Program-made: the position numbers and the translations under genes
Notes under the pieces: generated by a model
Told to the model about the DNA's origin: nothing
The model's database searches: none
Seen by the model: the letters and a program-made list of their open reading frames with translations, nothing else
In this document: positions 1 to 28,458 of the stretch, in pieces
Layout of the letters: every line of letters starts with the position of its first letter
Position numbering within the stretch: the first letter of the stretch is position 1
Assembly: GCA_026770025.1 (NCBI GenBank)
Contig: JAMXDE010000004.1
Span: 1,984,001 to 2,048,000, forward strand
DNA length: 64,000 bases
DNA from: Craspedostauros australis
Taxonomy: Eukaryota > Bacillariophyta > Bacillariophyceae > Mastogloiales > Achnanthaceae
Direction of reading: 5' to 3'

Positions 1-1470
1 CTTCCGGGAAACGTGGGTGCGTCCCCCTCGCCGATACATGTGAAAAGAGTAGAACCGCGTGGGAATGGGTACTTGCTCCGCGCCGATGGCCGACCGTAGA
101 AAGGTGTCGCCCCGCTGTTGTTGCTCCAGCAAGGATGGATACACGAACGTCGTGCGGTAGAATTGCGACGTCCACGGTTGCCCCGAGGGATGGTGCGCCA
201 CGAGGTCGGTTGGGACACAGTTATCCCGATCCGCGCGTGCGCGAAGCATCCAGTCGCCGAGACTGAGGCCGGACGAGGTGCGGAAAGCGATGACGACGTC
301 GGCCTGCCGACTGCGATCGGACTTCGTCTGCATGGCCAGGCGTAGTAGTACTGCGCCCGTGTTCGGTGGGAGGTCGTTGTTGCTGGCGTCGCGTGGGTTG
401 AGAATGGTGACATCCGACCACGCGATACCGAAGGTTTCCGCAGCTCGTAGCCATCCCAACCAGCCGATGAGGTTGATGATGCCCGCCATAGCCGCTGTCC
501 GCCGCTGTTGTGGCGTGACTGCATGTTGGTATTGGTGGAGGAAACTTCGGTCCATAAAGTGGACGTGACGAGAAAGCAAGGCAGCTGAGGGCCGCGAGTC
601 TTCACCGAGCCGTGTGCGCATGCCCTGTGTCAGCATCGCATATCCGAGATGGTCGGTAGGGAGGCATGCGTCGACGATGATGGGTCGTTGTTTGGCGTCG
701 AGCATGGCACGTTCGGGGTGCGAGATGCACATGTTCCACGCGCCAAAGGCCGATGCAGCGCTGCGTAGCCCCCGTACGGTGCTGAATTTGATGGTCTGGT
801 CGTCGAGTGCGTTCTTGCGAGAGGGCGCCTGTGTGGCGTAGTGCTCCTGCGCCCACATGATCGGGATCGTGTCGGAGCAGGGTGGCGCCTGGATGTCGGG
901 TGGTTGCATAGTCGGGATGCCGTATTGCAGACCGAACTTGCGCAACACTTGAATCTTGCTGCTGTATGTAGTGAGTGTGCCGGCTGCCCAGTTGTGTGCC
1001 ATGTCGATGATGCGCATGCGCTCCAAGCGGAGGAGGTGATAATCGGTGGGGCTGGGGACCAGCTCCCGCTGGAGATGCACTCGAACCGTGCATGCTTCAC
1101 AGACAAAGAGACCCAGGATGCCGAGGTTGGGTGGCAGCACCAGGCCCTTATGATTGCGGAGACGCGTGCGGAAGGGAGGTCCGACTCGACAGCACAGCTT
1201 GTGGTATCGGGTATAACATGGCTGGTAGGAGGCACCGCCGTGAGTGAACCCAATGTCGGCGAAGTGACACTGGTGCGCGGCAGTGCGCTGATTGATACTC
1301 CTAGCACAGCCCGTGCAAACGCTCGGCGATCCGTTGGTGATGCCGCCGATTCCGGGAGCGGGGAGCAAAGTCCAATCTGGGAGGTGTGAGGGAACGAGTG
1401 TGTGGAGAGACGCGGAGGAGGAGGTTAGGAATGTTGAGAGGAGAAGAAGAAGAGAGAGACAGGTCGTCAT
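1..1470 (-). CDS. Tyrosine recombinase of the DIRS-like element (partial, runs off window)
   Basis: A frame open from an ATG at 1470 to position 1 (at least 490 residues), in a different frame from RT. After a hydrophobic start it has a Cys/His-rich stretch (pairs CTGC, CCR and CEAC with several His between) of about 110 residues that may bind metal. An SAM-like, helix-rich core-binding region follows. The catalytic domain shows LRAAE (first catalytic Arg region, near position 475) and the FHMYRRGG box (His-x-x-Arg) close to the window start, resembling the HSFRRG box of DIRS and crypton recombinases. The catalytic Tyr would lie beyond position 1. This frame was read directly from the reverse complement. 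Confidence 0.8.
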   Translation of the reverse strand, partial: MTTCLSLLLLLSTFLTSSSASLHTLVPSHLPDWTLLPAPGIGGITNGSPSVCTGCARSINQRTAAHQCHFADIGFTHGGASYQPCYTRYHKLCCRVGPPFRTRLRNHKGLVLPPNLGILGLFVCEACTVRVHLQRELVPSPTDYHLLRLERMRIIDMAHNWAAGTLTTYSSKIQVLRKFGLQYGIPTMQPPDIQAPPCSDTIPIMWAQEHYATQAPSRKNALDDQTIKFSTVRGLRSAASAFGAWNMCISHPERAMLDAKQRPIIVDACLPTDHLGYAMLTQGMRTRLGEDSRPSAALLSRHVHFMDRSFLHQYQHAVTPQQRRTAAMAGIINLIGWLGWLRAAETFGIAWSDVTILNPRDASNNDLPPNTGAVLLRLAMQTKSDRSRQADVVIAFRTSSGLSLGDWMLRARADRDNCVPTDLVAHHPSGQPWTSQFYRTTFVYPSLLEQQQRGDTFLRSAIGAEQVPIPTRFYSFHMYRRGGRTHVSRK

Positions 1471-4400
1471 TGGTGAACACTCCGACCCGGATGAGATGAC
1501 GTGAGAGTCGGACGAAAGTGCGTTGGAGCACTCTGGGGACGAGGATGACAAATCCAGTATCCAATGGCTGCTCCGCCCAGCACCCCAGTAGGAAGTAGAT
1601 CAGTTGATAGGCCAGTTCTGGCGGCGGTGCCCACAGGGTGATGCAGTTCATGCAGCTCTCTGGGTTCCACGGGCGGTCCCATCGACGTAGCAGTACAGTC
1701 GTGAGGGTGTCGGGGAAGGCGAGGGACGCGATCCGGGAGACATGCCGTTGTTGGAGTGGTGCCGGGGCCAGACATGCGGATAGGATCTGCGATGAGGTCG
1801 GTCTCTGATGGGCCGCATTGATCCAGATCCCACGGCTGAGTCCGTCAGTCCCTTCTGTGATGATGGCGGTGCCAGGGATGTGGATGACTTGAAGGTGACA
1901 CGACAGGTGAAGCTCGAGCTGCTTGATCTTTCGAACCATCTTGTGCAGTTCCGGTGATGTGGAAGTGCCTCCATCGACAACACAGTAGGTGCACATGTTG
2001 TCGGTGAAGTAGAAGAAGGTGGCGCCGAAGACGTCCATGGCAGATGCTGGGTTGTTGGCGACCTGCTGCAGAGTGCTGAGTAGGGTGCGTAGCTCCTTCC
2101 AGTTGGATGAGTGGCGTGTTGCCACGAGGGAGGACCATGTGCCCATCCACATACATGAGGGTTGACTGGGGAAGAGGATGGTGCCACCAGTGCCTGTGCC
2201 ACTTCCGTCTCCAAAGCTGCTGACGAGAATGCCGGTGCGGGTCGCGCGACCGCTTCGTGCGGTATCGTTGGTGAGCGCTGATCGCCACCATTGGAGGTCC
2301 TGTGTGACTGCAAGGGTGATAGCTGTGTAGCTGAAGTATGGTAGATCAGGTTGGTCCCATTCGCCGGGATGGACGAGTGCGTAGAGAGCACGCAGGTAGT
2401 TGCGACCGAGGTACGATGGTGTGGCCTCGGCTACGCTCTCCAACATGCCCGCCAGAACCGCGAGGGCGAGTCGGGAGACTCTTGTGGGTGTGGCTTCGAT
2501 GTAGTCCAACACCGCGATGATCTTGTCTCGTTTCAGCGGAGGAATGCGTAGGCGTGGTGTGCTTGTGGTGTCGAAAATCAGTCCAGTGTACTTGACAACC
2601 TGGCTGGGTGGTGTGAGCTTGCTAGGGTGACAGAGTAGGCCGCAGTCCACCGACAGGTCGAGGAAGGCCGACAGTGCCGCCGCGGTCTTGTGGCGTGTGG
2701 GTCCATGGATGATGAAGTCATCACAGTGGGCCCACACGAGAGCGGCGGGCGATCCGTCGGATCCGATGGCCACAAGTCCCTGTCCTCTGGTGTGATCATA
2801 GTCCAGGCCTTGGTCGAATGCGGTCCACCACATATTAGATCGTTGCGTGCCTTGGTATATCGGAGAATGCTCACGTAGTCGTCGGAGGAAAGCAGTTCCT
2901 AGCCTGCATGCGATAGCCGGTGATTGGCTAGATCCCATGGGCAGCCCAGCATACTGGTACATTTTTCCCGAAATCGGATGTTGGATGCCGAGAAATCGCC
3001 TTTCGTCAGGACGCGTTCGAAATTGGTAAAAATACTTCGAAGCGTCCACCACCGCCGACCATCCACCGTGATACATTTGTTTCAAAATGTCGCGGCTTTT
3101 TGGAAAAATGGTCGGGTCGGCTCCAATGAACTCGTTGGTGCGGTTTTCTCGCATGTTGGCGATGATGCGCCACTGATCGGGTTGCATGGGTTTCGGTAGA
3201 GCAAAGAGTGGAGCATTGACGACCACCGGATGGCGTGGATCTTGCGGCTCGACGACGCCGAGGCTGAGTAGCTCGTCGACGAAGTCCGCTGCCACCTGTT
3301 GTTGTTCAGCGGTCATGTCGGTGTTGTCATGGTATCCTGATTCCGGAGTGCCCAGAAAATTCATCGGACTCCCTTCTCGTAGATGGTCCCAGTGTTGCTG
3401 AGGGAATTCCCACCAGAGCGCTCGTAACTGTTTGGGGTCGGGGTGTGTGTCCGTGTAGTTGGTGCGGTGAACGCGTAGGTCGTCGAGTCCGTCCTCGAGT
3501 AGCGAAGCGGATCGTTCTCCGTACTGTGTACAAGCCTGCCGCAGGTTGCTCACACGGCGCCGATGCCAATCGCCGCCGGGAGAGAGGTTGGGTGGGGACC
3601 ATTGATATTGGGAGTCGCCATTGTTGTCCTCGGAGATGGTTGGCTGAGTCTGTCTTCGTCGTCTTCGTCGTCGTCGTCGTCGTTCTGTCGTTGGTGTCGT
3701 AGGTTGGGAGTGTTCGGAGTGCTGATGTACTTGGCGGGCCAAGTCCATCAGCGGTGTGGAGAGGTACTCCAGCAGATGTTGTGACGGAGTGTGGAAAAGC
3801 ACTCGCCATTTCGCCTGCTTCAGCACCTCTCCGGGGAGCGAGCTGCCCAGGGCTTGCCCTAACTCGTCTGGAAAGAGGCGTCGGACGCCTCTATCCGTCT
3901 GAATGAGGGCTAGCCGGTCCATTGGCATCGCAGATGTTGCGCTGTCGACGACCGACTGGGCGTTGCTCTTTGTTATATAGCATCGTCGAGGAACTCCGCA
4001 GTGACGAAGACAGTTCGCCATGCTTCGCTCTGATGCAGGTTGGAGGTCTGGCCATTCGATGCCAGATGCCGTACACGTTGTTGCCGCCCTCACTACCACC
4101 GTATAAATCACCGATACCGCTCCACCCATTCGTTGATTGGGGAGGGCCTTGATTTGTGTTCCATAACCGAGGTCCATCCAGAGCTTGCACTCCCGTTTGG
4201 AGGCTGCATGTTGTATCCACCCCAGGTGGGGTCCCGTCCATATCTCGATGACTAGCCGAGGTCGTAGGTTGACTTGGCAGTGGAGGACCCAACTACGCCA
4301 TTCCGTATTCTGGACCCCGTGGGCGACTAGAAAGTCCACCGGAATCTCGTTCAGAATCCGGTGAGACACTCTTGCCGTCGACCCAAGGAATTGGGTCGAG

Positions 4401-4705
4401 TCCGGGTACGTCCGAAGCGTGTGGGGCAAGCCGTCGTCATGTGTGCAAAAGGCATGCTCGAAAGCGGGCCAGATGCTGCTGGTCATGTGGAGACCGAAGT
4501 TCAGTGTTGCGTAGCGCAATGAACAGGTAGAGGACGTGGGGAGTTGTTTCGTGGATAATGCAACGATATCTGCTAAGTTAGAGCTTAGTAGTATGTCGCT
4601 CGGGCCGTCTGGATTGTCGATGTGCGTGTGTGTGGTGTCTGGGATGGTCGGTAGTATCGGTGTTTGTTGGTTGGCGTTGAGGTGGGCACGAGTTGTGGGC
4701 AGCAC
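1301..4705 (-). CDS. Reverse transcriptase-RNase H polyprotein of the DIRS-like element
   Basis: A long frame of about 1,130 residues. The N-terminal third is unassigned and includes an Arg-rich run. The middle carries reverse transcriptase features: a segment with VVDASKYFYQF, the GLPMGSSQSP block (usual GLxxSPxxF region), and the CDDF box corresponding to the catalytic xxDD motif. After it comes an RNase H-like region with GDGSG, FTDNM and a final DGLSRG. The relaxed GLPMG/DD spacing and the RNase H directly after RT match DIRS-order elements. Its end overlaps the tyrosine recombinase frame by about 170 nt, an arrangement common in this order. The far C-terminal part is unassigned. Confidence 0.85.
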   Translation of the reverse strand: MLPTTRAHLNANQQTPILPTIPDTTHTHIDNPDGPSDILLSSNLADIVALSTKQLPTSSTCSLRYATLNFGLHMTSSIWPAFEHAFCTHDDGLPHTLRTYPDSTQFLGSTARVSHRILNEIPVDFLVAHGVQNTEWRSWVLHCQVNLRPRLVIEIWTGPHLGWIQHAASKRECKLWMDLGYGTQIKALPNQRMGGAVSVIYTVVVRAATTCTASGIEWPDLQPASERSMANCLRHCGVPRRCYITKSNAQSVVDSATSAMPMDRLALIQTDRGVRRLFPDELGQALGSSLPGEVLKQAKWRVLFHTPSQHLLEYLSTPLMDLARQVHQHSEHSQPTTPTTERRRRRRRRRRQTQPTISEDNNGDSQYQWSPPNLSPGGDWHRRRVSNLRQACTQYGERSASLLEDGLDDLRVHRTNYTDTHPDPKQLRALWWEFPQQHWDHLREGSPMNFLGTPESGYHDNTDMTAEQQQVAADFVDELLSLGVVEPQDPRHPVVVNAPLFALPKPMQPDQWRIIANMRENRTNEFIGADPTIFPKSRDILKQMYHGGWSAVVDASKYFYQFRTRPDERRFLGIQHPISGKMYQYAGLPMGSSQSPAIACRLGTAFLRRLREHSPIYQGTQRSNMWWTAFDQGLDYDHTRGQGLVAIGSDGSPAALVWAHCDDFIIHGPTRHKTAAALSAFLDLSVDCGLLCHPSKLTPPSQVVKYTGLIFDTTSTPRLRIPPLKRDKIIAVLDYIEATPTRVSRLALAVLAGMLESVAEATPSYLGRNYLRALYALVHPGEWDQPDLPYFSYTAITLAVTQDLQWWRSALTNDTARSGRATRTGILVSSFGDGSGTGTGGTILFPSQPSCMWMGTWSSLVATRHSSNWKELRTLLSTLQQVANNPASAMDVFGATFFYFTDNMCTYCVVDGGTSTSPELHKMVRKIKQLELHLSCHLQVIHIPGTAIITEGTDGLSRGIWINAAHQRPTSSQILSACLAPAPLQQRHVSRIASLAFPDTLTTVLLRRWDRPWNPESCMNCITLWAPPPELAYQLIYFLLGCWAEQPLDTGFVILVPRVLQRTFVRLSRHLIRVGVFTNDDLSLSSSSPLNIPNLLLRVSPHTRSLTPPRLDFAPRSRNRRHHQRIAERLHGLC

Positions 4706-12987: not shown

Positions 12988-15560
12988 ATGGACGCGGAAG
13001 AGGCTGCGCTGCTTGCGGAAATGCGGGCCATTTCTAACCAATCGGCGCCCAACCGTTTTGATGCTGATGAGGACGAACCTCAGAAGGATGGTTTCGGTGC
13101 TGCAATGAACGCCAACGGTGGTGTTGCGGATGGTGGCTTCCAGAACAACGCGTCAGCGCCATTTCCTCAGACCGCACATTTTGCACCGCCGAATACCATT
13201 CGATCGAACCTACCCAATACCTTCCAGGGCGATCGTGGTGGATCCGCCGAGGACGAAGAACTTCTCAGGGAACTGCAGGCAATCTCTGCAAGATCCGGCG
13301 GCGCAGACCGATTCGCGGGAGGCGACGACAACGATGATGTTGTTGACGACTTCAACACTTTGCCCAACCAGCGCAGAAATTCGATGGACACGAACACGGG
13401 TGCTTCTGATATCTCAGCTCCGGCTCGACTTGCTGTGCAGCAACCTGCTCCCAAGCCGAGAACATCACGTAACCGACCAGGAGGAGTTCCACCGTGGAAA
13501 CGTGGCAAGCAAGCGCAGAGTCCAAAAAGTGAGATGCCAGCACCGTTCCCAAATGACGATGTGGTCATCGCAGCTCCACCAGCACCCACGCCTGCGCCAA
13601 CACCAATGCCTTCAGGACCTCCACAAACCATCAAATCGAATTTGCCCAACACTTTTCGAGGAGATCGCGGTGGCACAGCCGAAGATGAAGAACTTCTCAG
13701 GGAACTACAAGCAATATCGAACCGATCCGGAGGTGGAGATCGATTCGCAGGAGGCGACGATGACGATGATGGTGGCATGGGAATGCAAGCAGTAGCAACG
13801 GAAGTGCCACCTCAAAACACATCAGTCGCGACTTCTGCTCCAAAACCGAAATCTCGAACGCCACGCAATCGTGCCGGTGGTGTCCCACCGTGGAAGCGTG
13901 GGAAGCAAGCACAACCACCTGCACAGCAATCACCTTTTGGAAACGTGGATGCTATGAGTGAGGATGTTGTTGTTGCAGCTCCACCAGCACCCACGCCTGC
14001 GCCCGCACCTACGCCAACACCAATGCCTTCAGGACCTCCACAAACCATCAAATCAAATTTGCCAAACACGTTTCGCGGAGATCGCGGCGGAGCAGCCGAA
14101 GATGAAGAACTTCTCAGGGAACTACAAGCCATATCGAACCGATCCGGAGGTGGAGATCGATTCGCAGGAGGCGACGGCGATGATGATGGCATGGGAATGC
14201 AAGCAACAGCAACGGAAGTGCCACCTCAAAACACATCAGTCGCGACTTCTGCTCCAAAACCGAAATCCCGAACGCCACGCAATCGCGCCGGTGGTGTCCC
14301 ACCGTGGAAGCGTGGAAAGCAAGCACAAAATCAGCACAAAGACATGTCCACGCCGTTCCCAAACGACGATGTTGTCATCGCGGCTCCGCCTGTGCCTGTG
14401 CCTGCACCTGCTCCAGCACCAGGACCAATTGCGTACGGCCCACCTCAAACCATCAAATCAAATTTACCAAACACTTTTCGAGGAGATCGTGGCGGGGCGG
14501 CGGAAGATGAAGAGTTGCTACGAGAACTGCAGGCAATTTCAAATCGATCCGGAGGAGGAGGAGATAGATTCGCAGATGATGATGGCGCAGCCGATGGATT
14601 TGGCGTGGCAACTCCCAACACCCCAGCACATGTGGAAAGGAGCGCTCCAGAGCTAGTTTCGGAGGTTCCAGCTGGACCTCCACGAACCATCAAATCAGAT
14701 CTCCCCCAGACTTTCAAGGGAGATCGTGGCGGGGCTGCAGAAGATGAAGACCTGTTGCGAGAGCTGCAAGCGATTTCGTCACGATCAGGAGGCGGTGATC
14801 GATTTGTTGGTGGTGACGACGAAGCTGGGATGGATGCCGTAGTGACGGACAGCAACTTTGCAGCACGTCCAAGTCCAACAGAAACCAGCAGGCCCAAACC
14901 CAAGCAACGAACACCTCGCGGTCGGCCTGGAGGTGTCCCACCGTGGAAGCGTGGCAAGCAAACACAAACGCAGGCGCAGGCACAGCATTCGCCATTCGAA
15001 AACGTGGATGCAATGAACGAAGATGTTGTCATTGCGGCCCCACCAGCACCCGTGCCTTCGGGACCTCCACGAACTATGAAATCAGATTTGCCGCAAACTT
15101 TCAAAGGAGACCGCGGCGGCGTAGCTGAAGACGAAGAACTGCTACGCGAGCTGCAGGCAATATCAGCAAAATCCGGAGGAACAGATAGATTTGCGGGCGG
15201 CGATGATGCAAATGGTATTGGTGGTGCAATGGATGCCACACTGTCAGCCCCACCTGCTGCTCGGGCTGCTTCAAAGCCGACGCGACGATCTCAAAACACG
15301 CAGTCCAGAGGGGTTCCACCATGGAAACGAGGAAAGCAACAGCAAATGCAGCAAACAGGAAACAGTGATGATGTGATGGCGGCAGCCCCGACGATGCGTC
15401 CAGCCGCAACCGCTCCTCCTCCGAACACCATCAAGTCAGATTTACCCCAAACTTTCAAAGGGGATCGCGGGGGAGCAGCCGAAGATGAAGAGCTTCTTCG
15501 AGAATTGCAGGCGATATCCAATCGTGGGGGAATGGCACGATTTGACGATTCCAACAGTCC
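12988..15560 (+). repeat. Tandem coding repeats in the TOG protein N-terminus (seven full copies plus one partial)
   Basis: The unit reads roughly TIKSNLPNTFRGDRGG, then AAEDEELLRELQAISNRSGG, then DRFAGGDD. Full copies start near 13195, 13627, 14044, 14449, 14689, 15073 and 15427; a partial copy (EEAALLAEMRAIS) opens the protein at 12988. Five copies are followed, after a Pro/Lys/Arg linker, by a GVPPWKRGKQ box (near 13485, 13875, 14295, 14937, 15313); the fourth full copy lacks it. Copies 2-3 and their linkers are nearly identical at DNA level, which points to recent duplication. It is followed by a poly-Gln run (near 15630) before TOG1. No function can be assigned from sequence. Confidence 0.95.
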
Positions 15561-18500
15561 GCCAGACAACTACGAACATGAACAAACGCTTGGACATGGA
15601 CTTGGACAGCAGGCACAGCCGCGGCCACAGCAGCAGCAGCAGCAACAGCAACATAGTTCGCAGCCGCTGGGACAGAGCATGATGGGGATTGGTGGATCAA
15701 CCCAGAGCACGCCGCCGCTGCAGGCGGAGTCGGAGGACGAAATCGTCGTAACACGAGATACCGTCTCGTCCATGCTTGTGGATAAGAAGTGGAAGATTCG
15801 AAAAGCCGCGTACGGTTATGTGGCTGCGGCAATGAAAGGCACCGGTGAAGATCCAGCATCGGTCGGATCATTGATATCTGAAGTTGGAGGTCAACTGTCC
15901 GCACTCCTCATGGATAAGAATGCCAGCGCTCTTGAATCATGTTTGGATATGACACTGGTGTACGTGAACACGTCCGCAGATGCCCTTCCCTTGGAACAGG
16001 CAGCGAAGATCACCCAGTCATTGGTAAAGGGAACAGCGTTCGGATCGTCAAGACCAGCCACGATCAAGTGTTCCGATGAAATTGCGATGAAACTGATTGA
16101 ATTCGCTGAAGATGGTGCCTCCATCAAGGCAGTCGCGCAGGCGGTGCTAGACCATGGCCTCACGTCGAGAAAGCCAAAGGTGGTTCTCCAGAGCGCCACG
16201 CTCGTCCTGAATGCTGCCAAAGCATTTGGAGCAGCATGCCTGCCGCTTGCGTCCATCACAACATCGCTGCCAAAGCTTCTTTCCAACACGAACAAGAAGG
16301 TCCGTGATGTAGCAGTTGACACCGTCGTCGAATTCTGCCGGGCCTTTGGTTCCAAGGCGCCAATGGAAGGCGTGATCGGCAAGATGCAGAAATCGCAGGC
16401 GAAGCATGTGGATTCGCAGCTTGCTAGCCAGCCAAGCGCAGCACCACCAACACGAACGTTGCGATACATGCAGCAGAACGGCCAAGCCGGTGGAGCGCCT
16501 GCATCCGCTGCTGATGCTCTTGCTGCTTTGGAGGCTGGGGCGAAGGAGTTGGAGATGGAGCGGCTAGCAAAGCGCCCGGCAGTCAATCTTATGGCAACAC
16601 TTCCAAAAACCGATTACTCAGCAAAGCTGCAGTTGGCAAAGTGGTCAGAAAAGGTTGGGGCGCTCGACATCGCGCTTCAAACCGGGGGCGACAAACCGTA
16701 CAAGCTCACGCCGCCATCTTCGAACTCCAATTACGCTCCACTGATCAGCGACATGAAGGGGCTGCTTTCACATACGCACTTTGCAGTCTGCAGCAAGGCA
16801 ATGCAGGTTCTATCCATGTTGGCTGAAGGCGTCGGTGACAAGCTGTTCCCGAACCTGCGTCCACTGATTGGCAAATTGCTATCTCTAGCGAAAGACAAGA
16901 AGCTGACGAAGCCATCAGGTCAGTGCCTTGATTCTCTTTTCGGCAAGGTGTTGTCGATCGATCATGTAGTCGATCAGGACGCTCTCCCAGACGCGGTGAA
17001 CGAGAAAAAGCAGAAGAATGCGCTAGCGCGAACGGCGGCGTTGGACTTTCTAAATCGATGCGTGAGTCGGGCAGAGAACGCTGGTCCCCGTGGCGTGCTC
17101 TCGGTGGGAGCGGCTGACAAATGCGCAAAGCTTGGCGTCATGAAGTTGGAAGACTCCGACGCCTCCGTACGAAAGGCCGCGATGGGCGTCCTGCAAAGCC
17201 TCCAAAGTGCAAATGCGGAAGGCGTGCGAAATGTCGTGAACGGCATCATCGACACGTTGCAGGCGAAGAATGCGAGAGCTTACAAATCACTGATGAAGAC
17301 GAAGATGCAAGAGGGTCAGAGCCAAGGTCAAGGCCAAGGCCAAGGGAACGGCAAATCCTCTGCGCAAGCATCGAAGCCAAATACAAGCAAGGGCACGCAA
17401 TCGAGAGCTCCAGGACCGCCAAAACCTGCGAATGCCACAACACGAGGTGCACCTCCGAAGCGAACACAGCCGAGCGCAACAACAGCGAGACCGCAATCCA
17501 GGGCACCCACAGCCAAGCCGCCACGTCCAGCTGCAGTACCAGTAGCAACATCATTGCAAACTGGAGCATCGACGGCATCATCCGCCGGACCAGTCGCCGA
17601 ATCCATGGATGATTTACCTGACGGCGATCAGGCCATGCAACATTGCGAAGATCTGAACATCCCAAATTGGTCCGCAGAAGACGATGAGGGGGGTGTGTTA
17701 GCAGGTCTCCAAGGTTCGTACTTGCCTGACGTGCCACTTCCCGATTTTCGTTTTCTCCGAAGCGTCTTGAAGTGTCGTTGTTGACTCTGCCACTGTTGCT
17801 GCTGGTGCTGGTGTCGCTGCTTCGATCGCTCATCTTACCTCGCTTCACGCCAAAACTGCTTGGATCATCATTACTGTTAAATCTCTCCACTCTACTCGAA
17901 CTGTGCTCTCTTTTACTGCCTGAACAAACCACAACAGCATCGAAATGGGCGTTTCGGAAGGGTGCGATCGACTCGTTTGCGGCCTTCATCACATCGTCGG
18001 ACTACTCGTCAGATCCAAATAAGCTTCCATCGGATACGGCAGCGATCTTCACCCTCGCTCGCAATCATACGAAGGATTTCAAGGATACGAATGTGAACAT
18101 TATGAAGGCAATCATGCAACTGTTCATTGCGGCCATCGATCAGCATTACGAGCACAGACGTGTGTTCTCTGAGACCTTGACCAAAGACGCTGTGCGCATC
18201 GCCGTGCCGAAGATTGCCGACAAGAAGCTCATGGCGACATCGAAGGAGCTATTGACGAAGCTTTGCACCGTGCAGCAGCCAAGCAGTATTCTCACAGGCA
18301 GCTTCAGCTCAATCGATGGTGTCAGGGCACCTCTTCCCCACGAAGAGCTCCTCAAATGGTTCGCTTCGTTCTGTGGCGACTTTGGATCAGGAACGATCGG
18401 AGGCGCCATGAATGATACTGTCGAATGGTTGGTGAAGGAAGGCAAATCTTCCAACTTGAAGATCAAGCGAGCGGCTCAATCTGCCTTTGCCATCATGTTC

Positions 18501-21500
18501 GTTCATCTTGGACCAGCCTTCGAAGCAATTGCAATGAGCGCGACCACTGATCAAGGCTTGAAGGACCAGCTCGGGCAGACATTCTCGAAGGCCGATTTTG
18601 ATCCGTCATTGGCGAGTCAGCCTTGGCCCAAGTCCTCTCTGGCACACGGTGTTGGCAGAAACGGCGGGGGCGTTGGCGACGGAAGCGATGGTGCTGGTGA
18701 TACCGGCTCCCCGGGCCTCACGTTGGAACTTCCAAAATTCGACTTGGTGGCCTCGCTCCCCAAAGACTGCATGAAGAGGATGGCATTGAAGGACAGCAAG
18801 ACTGCATGGAAGCAACGTAAAGCAGCTCTGGAAGAAGTGGAGAAATCGCTGAAGAATTGCAACGGTCTCATCGATACAGCCCATCCCAAGGGAGTCGCAG
18901 ACATCTTGAAGGGTATGAAAGAACGGCTTTCTGATTCACAAAGCAACCTGCGGCCACTTGCTGTGCGGCTGATCGGATCTCTCCTTGGTAAGATCGATGC
19001 AGTAATGCAAGGCAAACTTGGCAGGGTTGTCTACGGTGCAGTTCTGAGCGGTGCCATGAACGATGGGAAAAAGACGATGCACGATGCATCCATGAAGGCG
19101 CTGAAAGATGCCACGTCGAAACCAGCCATCGTTGGCGGGGGGATCAACGAAATGTCCGTGGAACCATTCGTCGTCTCTCTCGTTGGCGAACTGGCCGAAT
19201 CCAAGTTCCAGGTGAGTGCTGTGTTGGATGCAGTTCAGTTGGAGTCCTCGACGGTCAAGGGACACGACAAACAATGAAGCGAGGAATCTTGGGGGCAAGA
19301 TAGCGCGTACCCTCCTTTCCTGTGACTAACACTCCTTTTGGTGTCTTCGATCCAATTTTCGTGCGTTTATGCATACGCATGCGCGTTCATCCACTCTCGA
19401 CGGGTGCTCGCACACAATAGTCGAATGGCATTGCTGATGTGCTTCGCATGACAAGTGAGATGGCAAGCAGCATCCCCAGTCTGGATGCCATTGCATCGCA
19501 AGGTGGCTTGACTCTCGGCGAGCGCTTCTCCCAGGTTGTGATTGAAAGCTTAATGTCATCGAAGTCCGATGTTAGAGCAGCCGGCGAAGCGCTCTTGTCG
19601 GCGTGTGTAGAGAATCGCTGCATCAGTATCGAGGGTCTCAAGAAAGCATTGGGTAGGATGAAACCAGCGAAGCAACGAAGCGTTGCACCGATCATCACGA
19701 AATTGAGCAAGAAAGCTGCCAGCCACGTGGGCGACGAAGATGAAGCACCGTCACCCTCGCCTTCGCCAAGTGCAGCAGCACAAGGGTCACCGAAGAAAAC
19801 CTTCGCGAGCCGGTTGTCTGCGGCGAAGAGATCAAGCGTCCTCCCCACAGGCAACGGAACGGGCACGGGCACAGGCACCGGCGCAATTGGCAATGAACGA
19901 CCACATGCGAATACCCGGAGACGTGCATCGTTGGGGACGAAGGGATCAGCCGGAACAGATGAAACTCCAACCGATGATTCTACTGGTGCGCACCCGTTGG
20001 ACGGAAGTCCAGGCTCTGCCGGTGTCCAGCGATCACGCGCCGCTCTTCGAATGCTGACATGGCCTGAGTATCCCGAAGAATCGAGTGGGTCGTCTCTCTT
20101 TAACGGCCTGAAGAAATCTTGGGTTCCCTTGCTGCCGGCAGCCTCCACACCAATCCTCTTCCCCAGTGGTGGCTTCAGGAAGCAGGACGATGCCAAGGCT
20201 GGGTGTGAACTCCTCTCGAAGGCGGTTGACCTTGAAAGAACCGGAGAGGGAGAGCCCATGATCATGAATCAGATTGGCATCATTCTGAAGTGGATCACTT
20301 TCGTCCTTTGCACCAAGGAAAGTACTGTTGGGTTGCAGGCACTTCTGACATTCCTGTCCAGCCTTTTCGACTTTCTTCGAGAGCAAAGCTACGAGTTCAG
20401 TGATTTCGATGTCATCTCCGTGGTCCCTTTCCTCTTCGACAAGGCCAGCGCCGCGAAGGGTCGGTTCAAGGATACGTACAATGACCTACTTGCGCAGATC
20501 AAGCATGAGAGTCTCCTCCCCACGAAGAAACTTGGCCCATTGGTGTGCGTCGGTTTGATCGAATCGTCGGTGCATGCAAAGGCGCGGCTCCAAGCTTGCA
20601 AGGACTGCTCATCATGCGTCGAGAAGATTGGTCTCAGCGGAATTGGAAAGAAGGGGGTGCTGGTCGTGTCGAAATCGCTCTCTGAAGAAAAGCTACCAGA
20701 CAACCGCCATGCGCTCCTTGACCTCGTCATTATCTTGCTCTCCAGAATGAACGACGACATGCAACGCTTTGCTCGGATTTGTGGTCCGAATTTAAGCGAC
20801 AAGGCAAGGAATTTGATCGAAGAACAGCTCAAGAAAGCATCCACTACGTCGGCGCATGCAGCGGCCGACACTTCAAGGCCTGCATCGAAGATGTCGAAGC
20901 CATCACGACCTCTTGGGGGTGCCTCGGTTGCCGGTGGTAGCGGAATGGCATCCACCACCGCAGCGTCGTCAACACGGCGTGTGTCTCGTCTGGCGGCGCC
21001 GCCTGCAACGGCATCCAAAATCGCGAAGACCAACATCGCAAGACCTGTGCAAAGATCTCCGGAAAAACAGCAATTCAAGGACGGTGCGACGGGATCTTTC
21101 GGCGATGAGCTCCCGTCTCTTGACTTGCGCTTTAGCAAGCGAGGCACGGGAATCCCGAGAGCGTCGCCAAGGGCTTCACCAAGAGCAAGACATCGAGATG
21201 ATCAAGACTACGAGTTGACGGGCGCAGCAGCACCTGTACCGGCGGCCTTTGATTCCCATCATGAAAGTGCACCCGAAGGCTATCGCGGAGGGGTGGACAG
21301 CAAGGCAAACGCCGCGATGGGCGGTCAGTCTCACAATGACCATCATGGCATAGGACACTCAACACCCGACAGGGCAACGGCACAATTATCCAACCCCGCG
21401 TCTTGGGATAGCGAAACCCGCACAAGCAGGACCGGGGTTCTCGTGTCAACGCTGGATAGCTTGAAATCGAATCTCATGCCATCAGGGACAGCACGAGTTT

Positions 21501-23605
21501 CTGCCAAGGCCACCTTGGCAGCGAGCAAGGGCAACATGCCACCTGAAGCTGCGGGTGCTGCAGCCTCATTGCGTGCGAGACTGCTCAAGATCCGCGAGCG
21601 CAACAAGACCGCACCCCCTATCCCCCGAAGCGAGCATAAACAGAGCACAGAAACACCGTCGCAACCTCCAACACACAATGACCCGAATGGTGGCTCCTTG
21701 GCGACGTCCGGGGGTGCCTCTGACGGTGGCGCACTTCAGAGGGAAGCAGGGCATGCATCAAGCATGCATCCTAACATCACCGATAACGTACAGGATGCCA
21801 TGACTGGGGATGGATCAGACCTCGTGTCTGAAGGGCAACATGCGTCTTATGCCGTCTACCATGGCTACAACCGAACCCTTTTCGATGATGTGATGGCATC
21901 GATCAACCGCCTAGTGCAGAAGGAAACTCCTCTGGCCGAAGACGATGACGATCTCGTGTCTTGTACCGAGTCCTTGAAGGCAATCCACGCAGCGATATCC
22001 TCCCAGCCCAACCTCGTTTCCAACGTCGACTCGCAAGAAATCGCCTACTTGAGGGACGCCATTATCGTCAACACCAACGACACCGTCGCGGGGCTTACCT
22101 CCCTCATCGATTTCGGCTTCCAATGCCACCAGCATGTTTGCTCTGCCGGCATGTCTGTGCCGCTGCTGTCGGTCGACCTGGCCTGTCTCATGGCAATCTT
22201 CAGGGCTGAAGACACGTCGAAGCAGGTGCACCAAGATCAGCTCGCGATGCTGATTCGGGAAGCAGGAAAGGCACTTTTGGATCCACGGCTTGCCAGTCCG
22301 TCGCAGCTGACCGATGTGGAACGCCTTGACGATGCAACCAGCACACAGCTCGTGCGTGCCATCAACAAACTAGCGGTTCAGGCGGCGACAGGATCAACAC
22401 GGGACTCGTCCATCCAGGCGCTGCTCTCTCTCCAGGTCCAGCTTCGGTTGCATCCTTCCGAGGACAATACGAACGTCGTCTTCAACAGCAGACTATCGCG
22501 AGTTGTCAGTAAGTTGTTTGCGAGAGTCATCAAGGCGGAGGAGAGCGCGAGCATCCCGTTCTCGTCGCTTGCTGTGGACATGGAGACAGTTCTTTGTTGC
22601 CTCGAGGACACGCTCGCGAGATGCGATAAGGTGGAGATGGATCCAGCATTCGCCGATGGAGTCGCAGCTGTCACGCAGAACATCAAGACCCTCCTTGTTG
22701 CCATCCTTCAAGCGAAAGGTGGAACAGTCACGCTGAAGTCGTCGATGGAAGATGTGGGCATCGATCCCGTGACTTCGTCCTTGGGACGGTTGATGTCCAA
22801 CTGCGCTGCTGAGCTCAACATGGCGCCGCCCCCAGCACCATCGCCACGCGCGGGTGGCGCAAGAACCCCATCGGTCGACATCGCCACCCTCGTCTCGGCT
22901 GTGGGAAGCGCCGCTGCGGGAGCAGAACGTGACGAGGCGGTTGGCGCGCTGCGCAGGTACAAGGAGGTGCATGGAGAGATCGAGCTAACGGCGCATTTGC
23001 AGGGAGTGTCATCGGCATTCCGCCAGTTCATACTGGACCAGCTTTCCAACGCACCCCAGCAAGGGACGTCATCGGGCGATGGCGCGAGCAAGCACACGGC
23101 AGGATCGATGTCGGAACGTCTGAAGAATCTGAGGTCGAAACTGTCAGCCACCGAAGCGGTGATGCAGTCCACGGCTGAGCCCGAACCAACATTGTCGCAG
23201 CCCCAATTCCAAATCCAAGCACAGCAACAGTCGTTTCCTAGCCCCTCCTCAGGCATGAACCAAGCTTCACCTTTGTCTCGTGTACCGTCGGCGCCATCGC
23301 CGCCTGTGCCGCAGCAAGCCCCAGCTTCTGGCGAGGATGCTCCCAATAGGACGCTTCGAGCATTCCGAGAGCGGCTCGCAGCAGCCCAGGAAAGACGCAC
23401 AGGAGGATTCGCAACAGCAGGTGGCGACAGCGCATCCAATCCACCTGAGGAGAGCGAAGTGATGAGAGACCCCACCGATTCCGACATGAGGTCGGCAGCT
23501 ATTCCCGCACCCACGGCAACGGGCGGAGCGATGAACGCGAGCAGCCGTGCAGCTGCCCTCCGCGCCAGAATCCAAGCCGTGAAACAAAGCAATCCAAACC
23601 CTTAG
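12988..23605 (+). CDS. XMAP215/Dis1/MOR1-family TOG microtubule polymerase with repeat-built N-terminal extension
   Basis: Processive microtubule plus-end polymerase of the ch-TOG/Stu2/MOR1 family, which binds tubulin through TOG (HEAT-repeat) domains. Model: exons 12988-17713, 17938-19211 and 19421-23605. Introns are GT-AG; the first is phase 1, the second phase 0. The product is 3,394 residues against about 2,000 in animals and plants. Residues 1 to about 915 are a novel extension with repeats (separate entry). TOG1 is about 917-1150 (starts near VDKKWKIRKAAY), TOG2 about 1200-1440, TOG3 from about 1576 (ASKWAFRKGAID, restored by the splice), TOG4 about 1840-2100, TOG5-like about 2210-2480. 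A C-terminal helical region at about 2820-3225 resembles the family's C-terminal domain. Linkers are Ser/Pro/basic rich, as in lattice-binding regions. The start was taken at MDAEEAALL because that ATG begins a partial repeat copy. Family call is firm; domain edges are approximate. Confidence 0.93.
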
Positions 23606-24127
23606 GGAGAGTGATAGACATGTATACTAGTAATAGTCGTATTAGAGCAGAGCATACCAGCCTTACTCAATTGCTTCCCGCATGGGTCTGCGCAATTCTT
23701 CTTCTCTACTCTTTGGTTAGAATCTCTAGCTTGTTCGTTGGAATTCCAACAATGTGTTCGAACTTGTCGAGGTTCGCTTTGTGGACATTGTGTCAGAGAA
23801 AAGGATACCTTTTGGCCACTGTTCGAACAGACATCACCCATTTCTCCCCCTACTGGAGTCGTCACAGCAGAATGAGCGCGGCCACGAGCAGCCGTACGAG
23901 TGTTCGACAGCGCCCACCCATTCACTGCCCCACTTACACACCAGGCTCGGCTCTCTCTCCCTCTCTCTACGAGTCGAGGCATACGAGCACTTCACGTCTT
24001 CCACTCAAAGGTCGTTGCACGGCTGATCGGCAACCGCAGATCCACAAAAAGTTACGTTGCTGTATCGGTTCAGTGCGTCCCGTTCCGCGCTGGTGAATAC
24101 GTATACATCCGCATTGCTTTCCAAAAG
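23606..24127. other. Spacer between TOG and methyltransferase genes
   Basis: About 520 bp between two genes on the same strand. It must hold the 3' end of the first and the promoter of the second. The methyltransferase frame stays open upstream to about 23900 but without a likely start, so that part is treated as untranslated. No defined element was recognised. Confidence 0.5.
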
Positions 24128-25447
24128 ATGTCATCATCTTCGTCGCCATCGGCCTCGCCGCTCACGCTGAATTCATCATTCGCTCTGCCTGCAACTCTGG
24201 GTTTTCTCGCGGGGTCTGCGATGACATTGGCACTCGGCAGTCTTGTTGCGAGGTATCGAGATCGTTCGACCACCACGGACAAGCCTGAGCCTGAACCTTC
24301 GCCACCGCTCGATGCCGAAGCCCATCTGTGGAAGATAGTGCAGTATTCATTTTCGGGGGCGCTCATCCGCGCAGGAGACAAGCTCGGCATTTACGAGAAG
24401 CTGCATAATGCCAAACGGACTTCTGCGACGGAACTGGCGACCCAGAACGGCTGGTCGGCTCGATGGGTGCGGGAATTTCTCATGCAAGCCGCAAGCGCGG
24501 GCATCTGCAGCTATCACAAGCAGGATGGTGGAACGAAGGAGCTAGAGTTCTCTCTCAATCCAGACTACGCGCCGTTCTTGAGGCAGCCCTCGGAGGAGCG
24601 CATGAGTTTGGCCGGGATGTTCCAGCTCCTGCTGCCTCTCCTCAATCGATCGGATGCTGTGGTGAAGGCCATTCAATCGGGTGTCGGAGTGGACTACGAC
24701 TGGGCTGAGAATCATGCCGATGATATCGTCGTCGCCATGGACAGAAAGAACAGAAACTGGTTCACCCATAGTCTGGTGGATGATGTTCTGTCGACGATCA
24801 TCATTCCATCCACAGGTGTGCCGCTGTTGCAAATGCTATCCTCCACTACTGCAGGACCCGTGCGCATCGCTGACGTTGGTTGTGGCTGTGGAGCATCCAG
24901 CATTGCCTTGGCAAAGCGTTTTCCCCACGCGCATGTCTTCGCCTACGAATCTTCTGAGCGCGCCATCGGAATCTTCCAACGTCGCATCCAGGAGGAGGGT
25001 ATCAGTAACATCACAATCTGCGACGTGGCGGAGCGCACCGTGGGTGATGGCCCCTGCCCTTCTGGCGAAGTAGAGAAGGAGAAGAATGTCTTTGACTTTG
25101 TCTACGCACACGATGTGGTGCACGATATGACGAATCCCAAGGCTCTCATTCGGGATGTCTACCACCGACTTTCGGACAGGGGCTGCTGGGTCATCGTGGA
25201 CATCGACTGCAGCGATGATGAGATTGCGAATCTGGAGAACCCTTCAGCCGCCACCATGTACGGATTCTCGTGCTTCCTATGCTTGGCATGCTCCTCGTCA
25301 ACGAAGGATGGAGCGGCGCTCGGTGTCTGCGGATTCCCACCAACGCTGGCGAAGAAATGGATGGACAAGGCAGGCTTCCATCACATGGTGAACCACTCGG
25401 TGAAGACTATCCTTCCACGAAATTCCTGCTTCATCGTCGCTAAATAG
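24128..25447 (+). CDS. Membrane-anchored SAM-dependent methyltransferase, winged-helix plus class I fold
   Basis: 439 residues from the ATG at 24128, single exon. Residues about 17-42 form one hydrophobic segment (FALPATLGFLAGSAMTLALG) followed by RYRDR, so it is probably an N-terminal anchor or targeting signal. Next comes a winged-helix-like dimerisation domain (about 75-150; SATELATQNGWSARWVREFL), as in O-methyltransferases and Rv2258c-type enzymes. The class I SAM fold follows, with motif I DVGCGCGASS (about residue 245) and an acidic loop ESSERAIG ending strand 2. A VYAHDVVHDM strand and the C-terminal NSCFIVAK complete the fold. Substrate is unknown; related families methylate small molecules or act on unknown substrates. 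The 3' end faces the CysRS gene 255 bp away; that spacer holds several GTACTC/GAGTAC words. Confidence 0.85.
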   Translation: MSSSSSPSASPLTLNSSFALPATLGFLAGSAMTLALGSLVARYRDRSTTTDKPEPEPSPPLDAEAHLWKIVQYSFSGALIRAGDKLGIYEKLHNAKRTSATELATQNGWSARWVREFLMQAASAGICSYHKQDGGTKELEFSLNPDYAPFLRQPSEERMSLAGMFQLLLPLLNRSDAVVKAIQSGVGVDYDWAENHADDIVVAMDRKNRNWFTHSLVDDVLSTIIIPSTGVPLLQMLSSTTAGPVRIADVGCGCGASSIALAKRFPHAHVFAYESSERAIGIFQRRIQEEGISNITICDVAERTVGDGPCPSGEVEKEKNVFDFVYAHDVVHDMTNPKALIRDVYHRLSDRGCWVIVDIDCSDDEIANLENPSAATMYGFSCFLCLACSSSTKDGAALGVCGFPPTLAKKWMDKAGFHHMVNHSVKTILPRNSCFIVAK

Positions 25448-25702: not shown

Positions 25703-27457
25703 CTATGCTTTAGATACGATCGGATCCCCGCCCTTGACATCCTTGATGGCATAGCCTTCTTCCAGCACCTGAGTTCGCAACGAATCCGCCAGTGCCCAAT
25801 CCTTGCTTTCCTTTGCCGAAACTCGAGCTTTCACCATCTCCATGATGGAATCCGGCACAACGCCGTCATCTTCGTTGCCGTCGTTGTCGCCGTCTGATGA
25901 GTCTCCATTGTGTGTTGACGGCACGTCGTAAAATATGCCGAATACTTTATCCAGCTGCTGCAAGGCCTGCTGGATGGCTTCCAGACCGGCGATGTCCAAC
26001 GAGGCATCTTCGTTGGACTTCGCTGCTTTCGCCACGCGCTTGAATTCGGTCTCCGCCAACTTGACCAGTCCGAACATCGCCGCAGATGCGCGCGGCATGC
26101 TCAGATCGTCCAGGAGCGCCGCTTCGAAATTCTGGATGGCTTTTGGGACATCTTGTGTGGCAATGACGGATTGGTCGCCGCCATCGCCATCGCCGCTGCT
26201 GGATTCGGTTGATGGCTCGCCAACATCTGCCTCCAACGCTGCCGATATCTGACCGACGACCTTGTCGATCCGCTTGAGCGCATTCTCAGCTGCCTCCATG
26301 GCCTTGGGCGTGAAACTGAGCGGGTTGCGGTACTGCGATGCGATGACCAAATACCGGTAGGCCCGGACCTGCGCATTGTTGGGACAGGCGTTCCTCAACG
26401 TCAAGAAGTTGCCAAGCGACTTGGACATCTTTTCATCGTTGATGTTGACAAAACCGTTGTGAAGCCAGCACTCGCAGAATGGCTGGCCGTTGGCGCCTTC
26501 GCTTTGGGCGATTTCGTTTTCGTGATGCGGGAACTTGAGATCGACGCCACCGCAGTGAATGTCAATCGTTTCACCCAGGTACTTGCGCGCCATGGCGGAA
26601 CATTCCAAGTGCCATCCGGGCCTGCCCTTCTGGATTTCATCCGATTGCCACGATGAGTCATCTCGATCGATGCCCGGTTTGTAGGCCTTCCACAAGCAAA
26701 AGTCGTTCTCGTTGCGTTTGAGATCATTCTCACCGCGCTCTGTCGATTCCATCTCGTCCCAGTTGATGTTCACGAGCTGCTGACCGTAGCCTTCCTTCTT
26801 GTCGGTGGCGAAGTACCATGATCCATCCTCGGTCTCGTAGGCAAGGCCGTTGTCTCGCAGCTGGAGGATCATCTTCATCATCTCCTCGATGTGCTCCGTC
26901 GCCCGTGGATAGAGCTCCGCCGGGATGATGTTGAGCGCCTTGAGATCCTCCATGAAAAGATTCTCAAATTTGATCGTCAGATCCGTGATGTCCGTAATGG
27001 ATCGCTCGTTGGCACGATTGATGATCTTGTCGTCCACATCGGTGATGTTGCAGACGTGTCGCACGTTGTATCCAAAATACAGCAGCGCCCGCTTGACGAG
27101 ATCGTACGTGAGGAAGGCGCGGAAGTTGCCAACGTGCGCGAAATCGTACACCGTGGGTCCGCAGGTGTACATGGTGACTTTGTTCGGCGTCAAGGGCTCC
27201 AATCGTTCCTTCGTTCGAGTTTTGGAGTTGTACAGCATGAGGTCAACATTCTGGTTGCTGGTTGCTGCGGATTCCGTGCTGGTGGCCACTTCCAACGTCG
27301 TGCGAAGTCGCCGATGCGTCGCGAATGCGAGTTGCGGCTGCTGCTGCTTTTGTTGTTGTTGCTGTCGAACGAATGCAGACGGTGACCATGCATCGATCTG
27401 CTGGCTGCCCCACGTCAGCAGGAGCGCCGACAGTGCCATCTTGGTGAGCGGTACCAT
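25703..27457 (-). CDS. Cysteinyl-tRNA synthetase, predicted plastid (possibly dual organelle) form
   Basis: Charges tRNA-Cys in an organelle. 584 residues, no intron. The signature boxes are present: YTCGPTVYDFAHVGNF (HIGH equivalent HVGNF and first zinc Cys), WHLECS and HCGGVDLKFPHHENE (further zinc ligands), and KMSKSLGNF. The C-terminal DALR/anticodon part follows with an acidic Gly/Asp/Ser insert. The start at 27457 gives MVPLTKMALSALLLTWGS, a signal-peptide-like stretch, then PSAFVRQ, fitting the SAF/AF cleavage motif of stramenopile plastid proteins, then a Gln-rich and Arg-rich transit-like segment. An in-frame ATG 114 nt upstream would hide the signal peptide, so it was not chosen. 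Convergent with the methyltransferase gene. Confidence 0.95.
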   Translation of the reverse strand: MVPLTKMALSALLLTWGSQQIDAWSPSAFVRQQQQQKQQQPQLAFATHRRLRTTLEVATSTESAATSNQNVDLMLYNSKTRTKERLEPLTPNKVTMYTCGPTVYDFAHVGNFRAFLTYDLVKRALLYFGYNVRHVCNITDVDDKIINRANERSITDITDLTIKFENLFMEDLKALNIIPAELYPRATEHIEEMMKMILQLRDNGLAYETEDGSWYFATDKKEGYGQQLVNINWDEMESTERGENDLKRNENDFCLWKAYKPGIDRDDSSWQSDEIQKGRPGWHLECSAMARKYLGETIDIHCGGVDLKFPHHENEIAQSEGANGQPFCECWLHNGFVNINDEKMSKSLGNFLTLRNACPNNAQVRAYRYLVIASQYRNPLSFTPKAMEAAENALKRIDKVVGQISAALEADVGEPSTESSSGDGDGGDQSVIATQDVPKAIQNFEAALLDDLSMPRASAAMFGLVKLAETEFKRVAKAAKSNEDASLDIAGLEAIQQALQQLDKVFGIFYDVPSTHNGDSSDGDNDGNEDDGVVPDSIMEMVKARVSAKESKDWALADSLRTQVLEEGYAIKDVKGGDPIVSKA

Positions 27458-28458
27458 TCTGCTTATCCAACCGTCGAGGTGCGTTGTCTTTGGGTGTGAG
27501 TGGATTTTATGTGAGTATTCGTATGGTAGGTGCCAGCAGTCCGAGGGTGGAGATGTCGTCGGAGGTTGCAATCCTCTCCATGCTCTACGACAACTCTGTT
27601 GGTGGGTATGGTGGTGGATTGTCGGAATACTCGTGGGCGAGGCGCCACCAAAGAAAAGATACGTGATGGCTGTCTGACGTCAACAAACGGATGACGGCAA
27701 GACCATTCTCTAGGCTCTTCAGACTCGCGCCAATGGATACGATAGATCCCGTCCAGCGTGTTTAGAAACCGCGAGACAAGAGTGTTTGATGTCAATCTCT
27801 TCACTTTTTCGCGCGGTGCTTTCCATCATTCTTTGACTTGACTTGATTTCAAAAGTTTATTGCTAATGCGTTAAGAATTTACATACAGTACGTGCGAGCG
27901 TATGTTTGAGTATGGTACATGTGGGATAAACCGGTACATACGAGTGCATGTCTGGGTGTGGTGGAGGATCAACCTTGCGCATCAGCGATGCGTCTGCCGC
28001 GCTTCTGCGGGCAGGGTTGATCGAATTGGCTATTGCCTCATTCATTCTTTCATTTCGTTCGTCCGATCGGGACGGACGTTTCATCACATTGAGACGGACT
28101 CTGTGGACTCTTGGACGTCCATGAGATCCGGCTCTCATTCAATTGTGGTAATTGCGGTGGTGCTCAAGTGGAAAGTGCAGGCGATCCGTCGTGGATCACA
28201 GCCCTTGCATCTTTCCTCACCTCATTTTTTGTGGATGGTAGGTTAACACTGCCAAAAGGGGTACGCTGTACTCTGATGGAGTAGAGCATTCATGCATGTT
28301 GCGCGTGGAAGCGCCGCATGCATACGTGCCAATCTCAAAGGATCGCCCAAAAGAGAAGGCAGGTCGTCGTGCATGGAACGATGCCATGACTTTGCTCGTG
28401 ACGCGTGGTCGCAGGTGATGCGCGTTTGTCGTCATCGCTGTTATTCGTGCATTGGTCT
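27458..28458. other. Spacer between CysRS and the GH99-like gene
   Basis: One kilobase between two minus-strand genes. It holds the CysRS promoter and the 3' region of the GH99-like gene. No convincing frame, RNA gene or defined element was seen; 27842-27960 is AT-rich with scattered GTAC words. Confidence 0.5.

Follow-up and report, generated by a model that had tools for sequence, protein, structure and literature searches.

The window analysed here is a stretch of 64,000 nucleotides from the diatom Craspedostauros australis (GCA_026770025.1, contig JAMXDE010000004.1, positions 1,984,001 to 2,048,000), and it carries on the + strand a gene whose product, judged by its sequence, is a diatom member of the XMAP215/CKAP5 family and would share the microtubule polymerase activity of that family. 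Microtubule growth is regulated by the conserved XMAP215 proteins, whose recruitment is a central question in mitosis. The reading frame is open from an ATG at 12988 to 17784, with an in-frame TGA upstream at 12925, and the predicted product of 3,394 residues comes from three exons. At both exon junctions (LAGLQ/ASKW and ESKFQ/SNG) the aligned relatives are continuous, except that the model from Cylindrotheca fusiformis has extra sequence at the first junction, apparently a retained intron. The protein begins with a repetitive arm (residues 1 to about 918), and no stop or interruption separates this arm from TOG1-TOG2 in exon 1. An earlier note on this DNA, made from its letters and open reading frames (ORFs), had described a 900-residue extension fused to TOG1 in one exon, which agrees with a frame that stays open into the PF21041 match from residue 930.

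The arm is composed of a head, seven full repeat units and five exact GVPPWKRGKQ boxes (PPWK boxes; Table 1), the same numbers of units and boxes as in the earlier note, whose additional partial copy proves to be the N-terminal head. A third motif, DVVIAA or DVVVAA (v box), follows the PPWK box at a constant spacing; this motif, the nature of the head and the two flavours of the helix described below go beyond what had been noticed before. The direct repeats were also recovered independently at the DNA level, with an uneven unit spacing of 237-432 nt. No repeat within 12988-15730 passes the threshold of Tandem Repeats Finder, probably because the units differ at near-saturated silent sites and are unevenly spaced. 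Between the seven units (21 pairs, 30 codons each), the mean proportion of differences is 0.78 at silent sites (pS) and 0.10 at replacement sites (pN), with a pN/pS of 0.13 and pN below pS in all 21 pairs. Since the units differ mostly at silent sites, the protein sequence is under purifying selection, and these values, together with the recurrence of the arm in relatives (E down to 1.5e-241), exclude a chance origin of the repeats.

The TOG1 profile PF21041 matches the window protein with 97.1 bits against a cut-off of 27.1, and this is the sole match of the model in the genome. The predicted structure shows TOG1 followed by TOG2 on comparison with structures of family members. When a profile of 37 diatom-like cores is aligned with one of eight animal and fungal members, the two correspond in the order of five TOG domains (profile-profile probability 100), over 1,845 columns locally (26-2340 against 8-1894) and 1,953 globally, with 18% identity to fish CKAP5; the limits of TOG3 to TOG5 are those that we take to apply in the animal proteins. 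Tryptophan in the first HEAT loop of TOG domains contacts tubulin, and seven aligned tryptophans are common to fish CKAP5, including window residues 935, 1219, 1579 and 1866 (TOG1 to TOG4) and 2214 (TOG5 region). A pattern for the WKxR neighbourhood matches TOG1 in 101 of the 121 diatom-like proteins considered below. Searching solved structures with phmmer gave three weak sequence matches, all within the TOG part. Foldseek by itself also returns importins and PP2A-A, which on the predicted model is general HEAT/ARM similarity. The window protein shares with ch-TOG, Msps, Stu2, Alp14 and MOR1 the TOG1-TOG2 fold, the domain order and the T-loop tryptophans of TOG1-TOG4. It departs from the family in a trait that is typical but not defining, as its TOG1 starts at about residue 921, after some 918 residues of arm, whereas in 13 non-diatom members TOG1 begins at residue 3-11 and no unit is present (0/13). 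The earlier note had given this usual start near TOG1, along with the family identity, and was right on both.

Three protein searches, each of which scores only about 8,000 length-limited candidates sharing most words with the query, returned 143 proteins. Thirteen of these are non-diatom (12 named animals or fungi, and P0136) and have far weaker scores; the other 130 and the window protein make up a set of 131 rows, in which TOG1 is reached in 121 (assessable), while in 10 it is missing or cut. At least one unit is present in 113 of the 121 assessable diatom-like XMAP215 proteins, the window included, and at least three units in 102. A head-like start was found in 57/121, also counting the window, with a lenient pattern that takes in at least P0064, which sets the minimum arm length of 247 and whose apparent head may belong to an inner unit of a truncated ORF. 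The arms of these 57 head-bearing proteins have a median length of 757 residues (range 247 to 1,221) and a median of six units (range 2 to 11), and between 0 and 11 PPW boxes occur in them. A quick tree of 126 rows, built from the TOG part and without bootstrap, groups the 121 diatom-like proteins beyond a branch with 100% support in the Shimodaira-Hasegawa-like approximate likelihood ratio test (SH-aLRT), apart from five non-diatom rows, and from their place in the tree the rows without a species name are probably diatoms as well. The window sits on a long branch (0.87) in a 28-row group (99*) with Fragilariopsis, Nitzschia and Cylindrotheca, which we take to be raphid pennates. The stramenopile origin implied by the earlier note is thereby correct, and is narrowed to diatoms and to the pennate part of the tree. 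Eleven members of the set, including centric and pennate genera, are named as diatoms by their source, and nine of them carry units; the Chaetoceros debilis protein is cut within TOG1, and Cylindrotheca fusiformis (P0072) has 45 residues before TOG1 and no unit, with six in C. closterium P0129.

Some of the proteins without a unit look truncated, because their starts fall inside an apparent unit tail: P0101 and P0131 start with MAISNKNKGKDRF and P0100 with MKSGSSNRF. P0082, P0084, P0101 and P0131 form one clade in the TOG tree. Conversely, P0016, P0027, P0034 and P0035, among the 10 rows that were dropped, have 5-8 units and no TOG1, and are probably cut genes. An alternative assigns the repeats to a separate gene or transcript upstream, and could appeal to an exon model that rests on sequence prediction. 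It can be rejected with little hesitation, given a single open frame into TOG1 behind the stop at 12925, the same fusion in 113/121 proteins and the head-like start in 57/121. The arm seems, by its distribution in sequences, to be a standing, lineage-wide feature of diatom-like XMAP215, a real variant that diatoms added to an otherwise standard cell-division protein. No non-diatom stramenopile (bolidophytes, brown algae, oomycetes) appeared by name in the three candidate- and length-limited searches, so the arm could be older than the diatoms.

The singular arm envisaged by the earlier note turns out to be widespread. The note had named a TOG family with an invariable extension of this kind as grounds for refutation, and diatom-like XMAP215 comes close to that, with eight of 121 proteins free of units. 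The claim that no counterpart had been described holds only for the literature: among the open PubMed Central papers listed, none describes a diatom XMAP215 arm in its title or abstract opening (subscription papers and preprints may differ), and counterparts do exist as sequences. Petrova et al. 2023 deal with this protein in diatoms; in the portion of the paper available, CKAP5 is given as 'single sequences', the table lists a small number of fragments, and neither repeats nor an arm are mentioned (PMC10454807).

Within the window's genome, no helix unit was found outside this gene: a 75-residue query gave six matches and a 45-residue query seven, all in this ORF, with only the best candidates scored. 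A sixth PPWKxxK match in the DNA (C21:174015) was considered as a second site and rejected; no + strand ORF of at least 150 residues is listed there, and a 388-residue ORF lies on the other strand. It was taken as a chance match because a reversed control pattern also matched twice, a short + strand exon being possible.

Across the arms, the elements follow an order of unit (U), PPWK box (w), optional v box (v) and next unit, with 392 Uw, 319 wU, 127 UU, 94 vU and 84 wv transitions. PPWK is the commonest 4-mer outside the units (106/112 arms; 0 in one shuffle), followed by PWKR (92 arms), LPPW (84), DVVV (55; 1 shuffled) and PWKK (53). The v box occurs 152 times in 64/112 arms, against 0.65 expected by shuffling, and in 135 cases the distance from PW[KR] to its start has a median of 17 residues and quartiles of 16 and 18. 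In sequence it resembles SUMO-interacting motifs, whose consensus has an hXhh or hhXh core with an acidic flank, according to the available part of PMC8616421. Boxes such as DVDVVVAAP and DDVVIAAP fit this consensus, and 118/152 v boxes fit the core, which is largely built in, as the search pattern demands V/I runs after D/E; the diatom boxes differ in keeping a fixed distance to the PPWK box.

The units are acidic, with a mean charge of -4.6 per 35 residues (636 units), and the 35-residue surroundings of PW[KR] are basic (mean +3.7; positive in 90% of 450 boxes), in agreement with the alternation of short helix-type motifs and basic boxes pointed out by the earlier note. These basic segments raise the possibility that the arm is an additional region for binding microtubules or tubulin, with PPWK segments lying on the acidic tubulin tails and the helices binding tubulin or tuning the binding, which would increase processivity; Stu2/XMAP215 polymerases do use a lattice-binding basic region, as stated in the accessible text of PMC5999394. 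However, the net charge of the whole arm is negative (median -23.5), the helices are acidic too, and charge alone would not require T-F-G-R-G-G, L-L-L, S and R-F to be nearly invariant, so that this explanation is unlikely as the principal function. The conservation was read in unit 6 from an alignment free of pattern bias (A1, 50 rows), in which S726, R734 and F735 are listed as invariant, and T704, F705, G707, R709, G710, G711, A713, D715, L718, L719 and L722 reach at least 90%. Column percentages from sets collected by pattern are inflated at the fixed positions, namely GDRGG, LL, E and IS in one set, and F/Y, G, R, G, LL and L for the flavour pattern.

In the AlphaFold2 (AF2) predictions, LLxELxxI forms an isolated helix, 12-13 residues long, in units 1, 2, 3, 6 and 7, and the linkers mostly stay below 60 in the predicted local distance difference test (pLDDT). 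For the head, a helix is predicted at residues 3-18 and pLDDT over residues 1-10 is 82; this comes from a model of the arm alone, whose overall confidence is low (mean pLDDT 52.3; predicted template modelling score 0.19). The arm is thus predicted to be mostly disordered, with near-identical acidic amphipathic helices of about 13 residues flanked by FxGDRGG and RF. Beside TOG1-TOG2, the best 10-residue helix blocks of units 6 and 7 score 71 and 68; in the arm alone, those of units 1-3 score 78, 75 and 76, and that of the head 82. As helix confidence is not higher beside TOG1-TOG2, there is no sign in the monomer AF2 models that the helices dock onto the protein's own TOG domains, a weak indication, given that the units and alignments (50 and 20 rows) differ and no contact map is at hand. 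This bears on self-association or autoinhibition, in which acidic helices would pair with PPWK boxes or TOG domains of the same or a neighbouring molecule to give a condensate or a closed polymerase. The alternation of acidic and basic segments and the low-complexity linkers would suit such pairing; monomer AF2 can miss it, but residue-level conservation exceeds what charge pairing needs, and we regard it as quite improbable as the main role. Both lattice binding and self-association could act together with docking on a partner.

Two other resemblances of the arm were considered. The WWC1-like helical hairpin PF25802 gives a whole-arm score of 37.2 against a cut-off of 27.8, read here as a sum over repeats; the best stretch covers 17/135 positions and none passes alone. 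A GoLoco-like character of LLxEL...RF was dropped, no such Pfam family being found on the arm at E 0.1.

The helix exists in two flavours. Among 477 units of 110 proteins, collected with a pattern in which three positions of the helix are unconstrained, E-A-I occurs in 252 and L-G-V in 172, mixed types are few (E-A-V 7, L-G-I 7, L-A-V 1), and E combined with G is found in no unit. AHD or AYD stands upstream of the helix in 84 L units and in none of the E units listed (the list covers 472/477). By protein, 58 arrays are E only, 43 L only and nine mixed, with true mixing of E and L in five of the nine (P0005, P0023, P0030, P0038 and P0059). The head is of E type in 56/57 proteins, and 22 L-only arrays with a visible head include 21 E-type heads. 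On the TOG tree, array flavour changes at least six times among 101 scored rows (25 unscored). In addition, all seven units of the window share a private R..Q pair, which is found in 0/470 other units, and the window head keeps A..R. The uniform flavour, the E-type heads and this contrast between units and head indicate that arrays change as a whole, apart from the head.

Copy number varies too. The number of units is 5, 5, 6 and 7 in P0089, P0090, P0092 and P0094, respectively, the differences being whole units, and the TOG parts of the first three agree with P0094 at 847-848/852 residues. This is possibly natural variation, with metagenome assembly collapse as the alternative. The Fragilariopsis cylindrus model P0055 has four units and its near-twin P0117 seven, a difference that could be a gene-model error. 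Such variability, with 2 to 11 copies in head-bearing proteins, near-identical proteins that differ by whole units (5, 6 and 7 in P0089, P0092 and P0094) and eight of 121 without a unit, might suggest that the repeats are a passive tether, a tolerated product of minisatellite-like drift that has no partner. We disfavour this as a very improbable account, in view of the pN/pS of 0.13 in the window, the presence of the arm in named centric and pennate diatoms, and the linked flavours.

Many copies of a conserved helix on a disordered chain, joined to a normal TOG array, are best explained by docking through avidity. We therefore read the arm as a putative multivalent docking arm, with the microtubule centre or the spindle pole as the favoured place, at a probability of about 0.5, on the strength of sequence and predicted structure and with a putative partner. 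All helices would fold into a common groove of a single partner protein, and the 2-11 copies would give the avidity needed to concentrate the polymerase on a platform with many copies of that partner, most likely the acentrosomal microtubule centre or spindle pole of diatoms, or a plus-end body. A further, weaker contact, either with the microtubule lattice or with another site on the platform, would be made by the basic boxes. Near-uniform arrays that switch flavour while the head stays fixed fit one partner for the array and a separately constrained head.

TACC is the usual spindle-pole adaptor of the XMAP215 family, and in TACC systems a C-terminal part of the polymerase binds this separate coiled-coil adaptor. 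The TACC contact puts the polymerase at poles and plus ends, as described in the accessible text of PMC4200520 and PMC4749977. By analogy with TACC-mediated recruitment (TACC3-ch-TOG, Alp7-Alp14), the arm would likewise be a protein contact that places the polymerase. In contrast to those systems, it is N-terminal, present in multiple copies and inside the polymerase itself, and TACC_C reaches at best 19 bits in the genome, below its cut-off of 29.9. EB1 (51.3 bits), GCP (195.5 bits) and MOZART1 (33.7 bits) are present over their cut-offs. It is conceivable, as a rather doubtful extension, that a built-in array of 2-11 diatom-specific helices, recognised at the microtubule centre by one receptor specific to diatoms, replaced recruitment by an adaptor, that helix and receptor co-evolved in E-A-I and L-G-V specificities with several switches of the whole array, and that the fixed head contacts a second, constant partner.

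Several points weigh against docking or its extension. An array could also become uniform if it re-expanded from a single unit within each lineage, and the private R..Q pair of the window suits re-expansion as well as co-evolution. The TACC_C search used one coiled-coil profile, which can miss distant members. Eight of the 121 assessable proteins have no unit, and four of them (P0082, P0084, P0109 and P0134) could be losses. Finally, 48/112 arms have no v box, and for this reason the v box is not essential.

In diatoms, division involves an acentrosomal microtubule centre of which the composition is not reliably established, and GCP8, GCP9 (MZT1), GCP-WD and augmin have not been identified in diatoms, as far as the available part of PMC10454807 states. 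A conserved modular arm would be a direct bait for the receptor at this centre. With 2-11 copies in two flavours, it is also a natural experiment in motif valency, and it could provide a diatom-only handle on cell division. In contrast to the report on MZT1, a MOZART1 (MZT1) match over the cut-off was found here (G000:C14:677792-677923, L023; 33.7 bits).

Table 1. Features of the XMAP215-family gene in the window (positions in the window; residues of the predicted protein).
Feature	Residues	Position	Strand	Remarks
Exon 1 (coding part, predicted)		12988..17713	+	arm, TOG1 and TOG2; predicted donor right after 17713; junction agrees with full-length relatives
Exon 2 (predicted)		17938..19211	+	TOG3 and most of TOG4
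Exon 3 (predicted)		19421..23605	+	end of TOG4, TOG5-like region and C-terminal part, including stop codon
Head module	1-29	12988..13074	+	starts MDAEEAALLAEMRAISNQSAPNRF; acidic helix LLAEMRAIS and RF, without FxGDRGG part
Repeat unit 1	73-113	13204..13326	+	sequence and DNA-level repeat
Repeat unit 2	217-257	13636..13758	+	sequence and DNA-level repeat
Repeat unit 3	356-396	14053..14175	+	sequence and DNA-level repeat
Repeat unit 4	491-532	14458..14583	+	sequence and DNA-level repeat
Repeat unit 5	570-610	14695..14817	+	sequence and DNA-level repeat
Repeat unit 6	699-739	15082..15204	+	sequence and DNA-level repeat; AF2 helix
Repeat unit 7	817-856	15436..15555	+	nearest TOG1; sequence and DNA-level repeat; AF2 helix
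PPWK box 1	166-175	13483..13512	+	GVPPWKRGKQ, exact
PPWK box 2	298-307	13879..13908	+	GVPPWKRGKQ, exact
PPWK box 3	436-445	14293..14322	+	GVPPWKRGKQ, exact
PPWK box 4	649-658	14932..14961	+	GVPPWKRGKQ, exact
PPWK box 5	775-784	15310..15339	+	GVPPWKRGKQ, exact
v box 1	191-196	13558..13575	+	DVVIAA; resembles SUMO-interacting motif; pattern match
v box 2	326-331	13963..13980	+	DVVVAA; resembles SUMO-interacting motif; pattern match
v box 3	461-466	14368..14385	+	DVVIAA; resembles SUMO-interacting motif; pattern match
v box 4	679-684	15022..15039	+	DVVIAA; resembles SUMO-interacting motif; pattern match
v box 5, degenerate	795-800	15370..15387	+	DVMAAA; read from translation; v-box pattern does not match
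TOG1 (PF21041)	930-1143	15775..16416	+	T-loop tryptophan 935
TOG2	about 1199-1430	16582..17277	+	T-loop tryptophan 1219
C-terminal basic stretches	2716-2729; 3230-3243; 3311-3326; 3378-3388		+	SLRARLLKIRERNK; MSERLKNLRSKLSA; TLRAFRERLAAAQERR; AALRARIQAVK; read from translation

Some relatives carry a further domain before the arm. A SAP domain (PF02037, 45.3 bits) lies at residues 11-45 of P0004 from Skeletonema marinoi, and precomputed PF02037 matches exist for P0014, P0040, P0044, P0046 and P0047, within part of the Skeletonema/Thalassiosira clade. The SAP domain is usually DNA-binding; its presence would bring the polymerase close to chromatin, a possible clue to where the arm acts. At the other end of the window protein, the C-terminal part (21566-23584) contains several short basic helix-like stretches of similar make-up (Table 1), which are perhaps a second set of repeated short motifs.

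Upstream of the gene, a 1,134-residue ORF at 1301-4705 (-) has a reverse-transcriptase match to PF00078 of 27.6 bits, below the cut-off of 29.6, and is perhaps a retrotransposon. The neighbours are otherwise ordinary, with a methyltransferase at 23900-25447 (+), a class I tRNA synthetase of PF01406 type at 25703-27571 (-), a PXA-domain ORF at 42968-45751 (+), a sorting-nexin C-terminal ORF at 46940-48811 (+) and an RNA polymerase Rpb1-type ORF at 62397-63932 (-).

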